Source: Verrucomicrobiota bacterium JB023 | GTDB taxonomy: Bacteria; Verrucomicrobiota; Verrucomicrobiia; Verrucomicrobiales; Akkermansiaceae | Reading direction: 5' to 3' | Length of the DNA: 64,000 nt | Assembly: GCA_030673895.1 (NCBI GenBank) | Contig: JAUTCR010000056.1 | Span: 1-64,000 of the forward strand | Shown here: positions 38,472-40,128 of the stretch, piece after piece | Layout of the letters: the number at the start of each line of letters is the position of its first letter | Position numbering within the stretch: position 1 is the stretch's first letter | Translations under genes and position numbers: made by a program | The notes under the pieces: generated by a model | Told to the model about the DNA's origin: nothing | What the model saw: the letters and a program-made list of their open reading frames with translations, nothing else | Databases searched by the model: none

Positions 38472-38906
38472 ATGAAACAAGTCGCGCTCACACTCGCATC
38501 AATCGCTGCCGCTTTGGTCTTCACTTCTTGTTGCGGTCTCGGTCCTTGTGGCCAGACCTGCGGCAAAAAACAGGATTTCGCACACGTAGGTTGCGAAAAT
38601 CATCGTTACGTCGAGAAGGAAGTCACCGAGTGGGTTGAGGAGCAAGTTGTCGTTGAAGGAAAAGGAGCCAAAGGAGTTACCGAAACCGTCACCGTCCGCC
38701 GTCCTATCGTGAAGACCGTCCGCGAAGAAGTTCCTTGTGGAACATGCGGTTCAGTTTTCTGCGCGACGCCCGATTGCTGCGGCATCGTTCCTAAGGCTGT
38801 CTTGAGCCGGGCAACCGCTCAGGGAGCTACTGGCGAACCTCACATCGGCACCATTCCTACGATGAAGGTTCTCGTTAGCGGCGCGGAGCCCACCAACGAA
38901 CTCTAA
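38472..38906 (+). CDS. cysteine-rich lipoprotein
   Basis: 144 residues with a lipoprotein signal: positive N-terminus, hydrophobic core LTLASIAAALVFTSC and a Cys-rich start of the mature part (CCGLGPCGQTCG). A central hydrophilic stretch (VTEWVEEQVVVEGKGAKGVT) and a second Cys cluster (CGTCGSVFCATPDCC) follow. I count 12 Cys in the mature part, suggesting metal binding or disulfides. First of five consecutive small lipoprotein genes. A terminator follows (38932-38965). No family recognised. Confidence 0.8.
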   Translation: MKQVALTLASIAAALVFTSCCGLGPCGQTCGKKQDFAHVGCENHRYVEKEVTEWVEEQVVVEGKGAKGVTETVTVRRPIVKTVREEVPCGTCGSVFCATPDCCGIVPKAVLSRATAQGATGEPHIGTIPTMKVLVSGAEPTNEL

Positions 38907-38920
38907 GACGTCCTTCATCA

Positions 38921-39250
38921 ATGAATTTGAGAAGCTGTGCAGGTTTGGTCCCGCACAGCTTTTTTGTGCCCCTCGCTCTCCTGCTCACAATGTCAGGGTG
39001 CGTGATCCCCGTGAAAGAGCAGAAGCCACCCTCCAATCATCAACCTCCCAACGAGCGAAAAGACCGCTCGCTCTCGTCCTATCAGGGACTACCGATTGAG
39101 GAGGCGGAAATGATGGCGAAGAGCGCCGGCTTGCAGACCCGGATCGTTCGAGATGGGCGTGAGCACTTTATCATCACCAAAGACATTCGCCCGGACCGAA
39201 TCAACTTTGAGATTGATGGAGGAAGGGTCACCTCCGCCGAGAAATATTGA
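38921..39250 (+). CDS. I78-like peptidase-inhibitor lipoprotein
   Basis: 109 residues: signal region MNLRSCAGLVPHSFFVPLAL with lipobox TMSGC, a polar linker, then a 55-residue domain (YQGLPIEEAEMMAKSAGLQT, then DIRPDRINFEIDGGRVTSAE) with the RPDRIN core of the I78 (potato-inhibitor-like) family. Such proteins may inhibit serine proteases in the periplasm. The usual DYRPDR reads DIRPDR here. The first codons lie inside the terminator hairpin of the preceding gene. A GTG at 38966 is an alternative start but leaves no charged N-terminus. Confidence 0.7.
   Translation: MNLRSCAGLVPHSFFVPLALLLTMSGCVIPVKEQKPPSNHQPPNERKDRSLSSYQGLPIEEAEMMAKSAGLQTRIVRDGREHFIITKDIRPDRINFEIDGGRVTSAEKY
38932..38965 (+). 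terminator. intrinsic terminator after the Cys-rich lipoprotein gene, lying across the I78-like gene start
   Basis: AAGCTGTGC (38932-38940) and GCACAGCTT (38953-38961) pair perfectly around a 12-base loop and are followed by a T-run to 38965. The whole structure sits in the first 15 codons of the I78-like lipoprotein gene. Confidence 0.82.
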
Positions 39251-39463
39251 GCTATCGTCTCCAGCCGTTGCAAGGCATCGGGACTGCAACCATTTAGGGG
39301 GTTTGGTACGCCTTCTGCGAATTGATTTCACACGTTGAAAAGCAACGGTTCCGGAGCCAACGAAAATAAGACATTCTCAATAATCCACTTGCGAAACCAA
39401 AGAACGCGAGCTATTTCGCGACGTCAGTCGCGAGGCAAATCGCAAAACGAACAGAACATCATT

Positions 39464-39583
39464 ATGAAAGCACTTCTTCTCTCCCTCATCGCTGCTATCG
39501 GCGTTCTTTCCGTCAGCTGCTGCTGCGGTAGCAAGCCCGCTCCTGCACCGGCGTCACCTGCTCCAACCTATTACGCCAAGTAA
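39464..39583 (+). CDS. 39-residue lipoprotein ending YYAK
   Basis: Start ATG 39464: MKALLLSLIAAIGVLSVSCC, then CGSKPAPAPASPAPTYYAK. Lipobox SVSC, a mature part of only about 21 residues that is Cys- and Pro/Ala-rich, and the C-terminus YYAK. It is one of three tiny lipoproteins in tandem (with 39664-39789 and 39904-40065) sharing this plan. The size is below the usual annotation cutoff, but the signal peptide, lipobox and neighbours support it. Confidence 0.72.
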   Translation: MKALLLSLIAAIGVLSVSCCCGSKPAPAPASPAPTYYAK

Positions 39584-39663
39584 GCTGAAACAAATTCTCT
39601 GGGGCGGCCGGGATAACCTCGCCGCACCGAGGTGAAACCAAATAACATCAAAACTAAGAAACT

Positions 39664-39789
39664 ATGAAAGTTGCAAAAATCATTGCTGTTCTTGCCGCTC
39701 TCGCCGGCTTCGCTCTCACCTCTTGCGGTGGATCTGATCCGGCACCTATGGCTCCCGCTCCCGTCCCTAGCGTGACCATCGGCAAGTAA
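39664..39789 (+). CDS. 41-residue lipoprotein ending TIGK
   Basis: MKVAKIIAVLAALAGFALTS with lipobox LTSC, then CGGSDPAPMAPAPVPSVTIG and a final Lys. The same plan as its two neighbours: a lysine-starting signal peptide, a very short Pro/Ala-rich mature chain and a Lys C-terminus. A strong terminator follows at 39817-39855. Confidence 0.75.
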   Translation: MKVAKIIAVLAALAGFALTSCGGSDPAPMAPAPVPSVTIGK

Positions 39790-39816
39790 ATTGCTTAAGG
39801 ACAAACGAAATGTTTC

Positions 39817-39855
39817 CAAGCTGGAGCCTTGCAATAGGCTCCAGCTTGTTTTTTT
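39817..39855 (+). terminator. intrinsic terminator after the TIGK lipoprotein
   Basis: CAAGCTGGAGCC (39817-39828) pairs with GGCTCCAGCTTG (39837-39848), a perfect 12-bp stem with an 8-base loop and a run of seven T residues. Confidence 0.93.
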
Positions 39856-39903
39856 ATGTCTGCACGCGTCGCCTTTGGGGCGGAACGAAAAGCACATACA
39901 GCG

Positions 39904-40065
39904 ATGAAATTGATTGTTCGACTTGGATTGGCGGCTGCAATCGCAGCCGGTTCGTTTGCATTATCTTCCTGCGGCGGTTGCTGCACTGGTGAAGATCCCG
40001 TCCCCCCATTGCGTCCTTTGCCTTCCTTCGACACTGCCCCGGCTGTCGAGTACTACGGGAAGTAA
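39904..40065 (+). CDS. 53-residue Cys-rich lipoprotein ending YYGK
   Basis: MKLIVRLGLAAAIAAGSFAL with lipobox LSSC, followed by CGGCCTGEDPVPPLRPLPSF and DTAPAVEYYGK. The longest of the three tiny lipoproteins, with four Cys in the mature part and the C-terminus YYGK. Followed by a terminator (40096-40128). Confidence 0.75.
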   Translation: MKLIVRLGLAAAIAAGSFALSSCGGCCTGEDPVPPLRPLPSFDTAPAVEYYGK

Positions 40066-40095
40066 CAAAAGCCGTTTTTGTAGAATCTCTAACCG

Positions 40096-40128
40096 AAGGG
40101 ACTATGCCGTGGCATGGTCCCTTTTTTC
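40096..40128 (+). terminator. intrinsic terminator after the YYGK lipoprotein
   Basis: AAGGGAC-ATGCC (40096-40108) pairs with GGCAT-GTCCCTT (40111-40123) apart from one T/G position, and a T-run follows. Confidence 0.85.

Follow-up and report, generated by a model that had tools for sequence, protein, structure and literature searches.

Three very short open reading frames, arranged in tandem on the forward strand of a 64,000 bp stretch of Verrucomicrobiota bacterium JB023 DNA (Akkermansiaceae; contig JAUTCR010000056.1, positions 1 to 64,000; hereafter the window), raise the question of whether such minute putative lipoproteins are genuine genes, and which role a lysine at the very end of each could have in the cell envelope. 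The initial annotation had described lipoproteins of 39, 41 and 53 residues with lipoboxes SVSC, LTSC and LSSC and C-termini YYAK, TIGK and YYGK, and these were recovered as such (genes A, B and C), as were the strong terminators that it had placed after two of the three. In each product a basic N-terminus precedes a hydrophobic stretch, which is followed by a lipobox and a Pro/Ala-rich mature chain that closes with the final Lys. The ORF of gene C includes a further ATG upstream at 39856, the start kept in relatives being that at 39904. No terminator was identified 3′ of gene A in the window.

Table 1. Array genes, terminators and upstream lipoprotein genes in the window. The slash marks the position before the lipobox Cys.
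Feature	Position	Strand	Product or type	Mature chain or remark
Upstream lipoprotein 1	38472–38906		144 aa, Cys-rich; no known family	3′ of pdhAB
Upstream lipoprotein 2	38921–39250		109 aa; no known family	3′ of pdhAB
Gene A	39464–39583	+	39-aa prolipoprotein, LSVS/C, end TYYAK	CCCGSKPAPAPASPAPTYYAK, 21 aa, C-terminal Lys
Gene B	39664–39789	+	41-aa prolipoprotein, ALTS/C, end TIGK	CGGSDPAPMAPAPVPSVTIGK, 21 aa, C-terminal Lys is sole Lys of mature chain
Terminator 3′ of B	39817–39848	+	intrinsic, strong	
Gene C	39904–40065	+	53-aa prolipoprotein, ALSS/C, end EYYGK	CGGCCTGEDPVPPLRPLPSFDTAPAVEYYGK, 31 aa, conserved Cys pair, LRPLP.F block, C-terminal Lys
Terminator 3′ of C	40095–40124	+	intrinsic, strong	

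Coding status, conservation and location of the array

Searches of Pfam, NCBIfam and PDB with A, B and C produced no family above cut-off. None of the three matched Pfam at E≤1, entericidin and PF04728 (Lpp) included, and 27 homologues of C gave no Pfam match at E≤0.1. In 38 relatives searched with A, the matches were weak yet paired and on the same strand. Reading of the loci revealed the array as A-B-C, A-C or B-C, with strand and order kept across many genera. The full A-B-C arrangement is present in Roseibacillus (G001, G002, G003), G010, G022, G012, G247, G018 and others, A-C in genera g7, g13 and g15, and B-C in g9 and, by our own scan, in several further genera, A and B being assigned by one simple rule, i.e. 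Cys beside the lipidated Cys, with which single assignments may err. Homologues thus exist in relatives, which leaves standing the claim of a common plan in the initial annotation and extends it to a family-wide array with near-invariant C-terminal Lys.

Pooled pN/pS within the genus of the window was 0.44 for A, 0.19 for B and 0.37 for C, and 0.21–0.40 for the array genes in three other genera, all of these figures being rough, as some genome pairs approach saturation at synonymous sites. A terminator-like hairpin was located 3′ of B in 12 of 21 relatives (2% in shuffles), 3′ of C in 37 of 66 (4% in shuffles), and 3′ of A in 5 of 36. A, B and C are real protein genes under purifying selection. 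A leader-peptide, small-RNA or chance-ORF origin would suit the very short reading frames and the strong terminators, but this reading is largely refuted by pN/pS of 0.19–0.44 across up to four genera; the lipobox is conserved, and the terminal Lys is retained through both of its codons (AAG and AAA). We give a non-coding origin next to no probability.

Group C was present in all 31 Akkermansiaceae genomes within a phylum sample of 288 and gave three weak matches outside the family, so it is nowhere convincing beyond Akkermansiaceae. Genus g3, which carries group C, is probably Akkermansia; the C protein of one A. muciniphila record looks closer to the g13 type than to that of g3. The group A profile extended to Lys-ended, related micro-lipoproteins in further families of the order, to two in other families of the class, and to g3 paralogues with Gln-rich chains, the distant Lys-ended proteins of other Verrucomicrobiota families coming mostly from matches that ended before the terminal Lys. 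The Gln-rich small lipoproteins of g3 (loci L186, L188, L201 and L203) end in KK or KGK, and tandem pairs occur at three of these loci. A tandem trio of small lipoproteins of 59–61 aa (NVWYQTFFGLSIESAVYGDGL..; locus L225, genome G375, 1408–2029), from a distant Verrucomicrobiota family, is apparently unrelated to the A-B-C array, and two of the three end in Lys. A search of the openly available literature for earlier work on lipoproteins of this sort from Verrucomicrobiota or Akkermansia found nothing relevant.

The two larger lipoprotein genes, directly after which the array was initially placed, both exist (Table 1), but a joint cluster is not supported: in relatives they accompany pdhAB and the array lies elsewhere, and they were rejected as part of the array system. 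The 144-aa lipoprotein is a conserved neighbour of pdhAB, the pyruvate dehydrogenase genes, found in 19 of 38 genomes and mostly adjoining pdhB. The interval 39250–39464 is a probable rearrangement junction, the array lying near a divergent asd in relatives and here 3′ of the pdhAB-lipoprotein block. In six genera asd is on the opposite strand ca. 1.5 kb upstream of the array; because it is absent from the window, this conserved neighbour was taken as a mark of location and a functional link was set aside. The TPR and comEC genes downstream were likewise rejected as linked, being neighbours only in g1 and g8 (comEC also in g15). In g12 and g14, dnaK lies downstream of the array.

The C-terminal lysine

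In total, 119 of 123 distinct array proteins end in Lys (C 66/66, B 21/21, A 32/36), and the four A proteins without it (three g11, one g13) end in Ala or Val. Terminal Arg was found in 0/123, and Asp and Glu were likewise absent as last residue. Large ORFs in the same loci, an approximate baseline drawn from unannotated ORFs, have final Lys in 12/220 (5.5%) and final Arg in 26/220 (12%); among larger lipoproteins terminal Lys was found in 0/6, a number too small for a baseline. The commonest ending of C is Tyr-x-Lys; outside g3, 29 of the 49 C proteins have an antepenultimate Tyr. To guard against an ending imposed by the search itself, micro-lipoproteins were taken whose profile match stopped before the terminal column: 17 of 19 end in Lys, in a hand-compiled list with five rows (four g3, one g13) belonging to the same family. 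The corresponding binomial probabilities, 5e-20 at a 5.5% rate and 1.5e-10 at a 20% rate, are indicative only, because the counts are non-independent through relatedness.

Since Arg never ends an array protein, though it is more frequent than Lys at the ends of large ORFs, the epsilon-amine, not charge alone, appears to matter at the chain end. The absence of terminal Arg argues against a purely electrostatic role and also against one of protection, in which the Lys would shield the chain, disordered and periplasmic, against Prc/DegP-type proteases that read the C-terminus, while function would reside N-terminally, the Cys cluster of C and A binding a metal or a partner or acting in redox. Disordered chains are what such proteases would be expected to attack, the Cys pair is invariant or nearly so in C, and the C-terminal residue has been linked to periplasmic proteolysis (cited in PMC12274547). 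Against protection, Asp, Glu or Arg would be equally suitable and yet are never terminal, and B retains its Lys in 21/21 proteins though its only Cys is the lipidated one; we find this explanation improbable.

A putative tether between outer membrane and peptidoglycan

The reading we favour, and hold to be somewhat better than an even proposition, is that of functional analogy without homology to Braun's lipoprotein (Lpp), A, B and C being disordered tethers that are anchored by lipid and bonded through Lys to the peptidoglycan. Lipidation is what established lipoprotein biology predicts for the lipobox signal peptide, which is present as a pattern in A, B, C and their homologues, as in Lpp. 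The residues after the Cys point to a putative outer-membrane location, and the short Pro/Ala-rich mature chains with a free C-terminal Lys are predicted to be disordered. By analogy with Lpp, the epsilon-amine of this Lys would be bonded covalently to meso-diaminopimelate (mDAP), and the peptides would serve as tethers, filling the role of Braun's lipoprotein in a family that is without it. An extended chain measures ~0.31 nm per residue, and by this figure the 21- and 31-residue chains would span roughly 6.5 and 9.6 nm when extended, so two tether lengths, of about 20 and about 30 residues, are possible.

Lpp (PF04728) was found in 0 of 38 genomes, the E. coli control being positive. YkuD (PF03734), the domain of L,D-transpeptidases, had 12 matches in the window genome and was present in 38/38 relatives. 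Of five YkuD loci read, two had an intact catalytic motif, S-x-G-C-I-R, by pattern match. One YkuD enzyme of the window genome (L230, 536–1171) has a lipoprotein-like signal peptide (FLTS/CGTT) and may be membrane anchored. LspA, DAP epimerase and OmpA-type peptidoglycan-binding domains are all present in the window genome. Stimulation of NOD1 indicates mDAP in peptidoglycan. Muropeptides of A. muciniphila stimulate NOD1 (PMC10688800), and in bacteria that tether outer-membrane proteins, 10 or more L,D-transpeptidases (LDTs) have been noted (PMC11841132).

The Lpp-like cross-linking on which the initial annotation had speculated thus gains indirect support from a Lys never replaced by Arg, the Tyr-x-Lys endings, the YkuD complement, the putative mDAP pathway and the absence of Lpp; the bond itself is still drawn by analogy, and cross-linking is, in our judgement, the best though unproven explanation, with the probabilities moderately on its side. 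Some observations run against it. No YkuD gene adjoins the array, and YkuD is also present throughout families without group C, which leaves no signal of co-occurrence; the OmpA-type domains mean that a tether is not strictly lacking; Lys was lost in the four A proteins of g11 and g13; and HP0135 of Helicobacter pylori, a species without the enzymes, is not sacculus-linked despite its terminal Lys (see below). A plain tether role does not account for the invariant or near-invariant Cys pair of C or for its LRPLP.F block.

Covalent lipoprotein-based tethering of the outer membrane is documented mainly in some proteobacteria, and in the literature searched no description of outer membrane-to-wall attachment in Verrucomicrobiota was found. 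It seems to us an evenly balanced prospect that in Akkermansiaceae, Akkermansia as a symbiont of the human gut included, and probably across much of Verrucomicrobiales, the outer membrane is held to peptidoglycan by previously undescribed disordered micro-lipoproteins of graded length via their C-terminal Lys, which would be an independent origin of the principle of Braun's lipoprotein in the PVC superphylum. If so, Lpp-type tethering would have arisen independently with a disordered chain of 20–30 residues, vesicle release and envelope stability could be manipulated simply in the gut symbiont, and an easily missed family of small proteins would acquire a testable function.

Comparison with known systems

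The PG1828 family lipoprotein (NF050142) was matched weakly by 5 of the 26 A proteins, at best with E 0.0059 and chiefly over the signal-peptide part; the window protein scored 14.1 bits, far under the curated cut-off of 50. The entericidin genes ecnAB are tandem tiny lipoprotein genes with terminators, which the array resembles, and a small lipoprotein pair or triplet could act as toxin and antidote or in control of bacteriolysis. Entericidins are not known to carry a conserved terminal Lys, and the Pro-rich chains of the array are not amphipathic helices; with the lack of an entericidin family match, such a role is very improbable. Entericidins and the EcnB-like Atu8019 (PMC7296081) are tiny lipoproteins, in E. 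coli with tandem genes, but they are without a Pro-rich chain and have another proposed role.

Close in size to the array proteins is HP0135 of Helicobacter pylori, a lipoprotein with a mature chain of 28 residues, a conserved C-terminal Lys, a predicted disordered C-terminus and a distribution in a single lineage, the deletion of which leads to hypervesiculation although the protein is not linked to the sacculus (PMC11768039). By this example, outer-membrane micro-lipoproteins could stabilise the envelope non-covalently, the chain and its Lys tail binding peptidoglycan, LPS or a partner protein, and for a mere tether the Cys pair and LRPLP.F block that are conserved in C would be superfluous. 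Electrostatic binding should, however, tolerate a terminal Arg, which is never found, and H. pylori is without L,D-transpeptidases, in contrast to the YkuD-rich window genome; we consider non-covalent binding unlikely, if worth keeping in mind. HP0135, likened here by its features, is also a single gene, whereas the array holds several.

Covalent attachment outside the Lpp family is known from LDT-rich bacteria, which attach several kinds of outer-membrane protein; LimB from Coxiella burnetii and Lpg1810 from Legionella are non-Lpp proteins bound to peptidoglycan in such genomes (PMC11841132). These proteins are unrelated to the array and their attachment lysine is not C-terminal, that of LimB being internal (PMC12274547). 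The Lpp-box of OutB/GspB in Dickeya dadantii shares the terminal Lys with the array; this Lys has been reported as both required and enough for attachment in a box that tolerates changes at its flanks, and an antepenultimate Tyr is favourable: Y56T lowers attachment of Lpp and T218Y raises that of a reporter, the Vibrio-type Lpp in turn ending in S/RYTK (PMC12274547). OutB/GspB is an inner-membrane protein with a folded domain and not a lipoprotein.

Lpp itself shares with the array proteins small size, the lipoprotein nature, the terminal Lys and the frequent Tyr-x-Lys end, in a genome with YkuD and a putative mDAP pathway. The array, known here from its genes and with attachment proposed by analogy, differs in having no sequence match to PF04728, in a Pro-rich chain of 20–31 residues, as read from the sequence, instead of the 58-residue helical trimeric coiled coil of Lpp, and in consisting of two or three divergent paralogues. 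By sequence, the array proteins are not members of the Lpp family; they may nevertheless act like Lpp.
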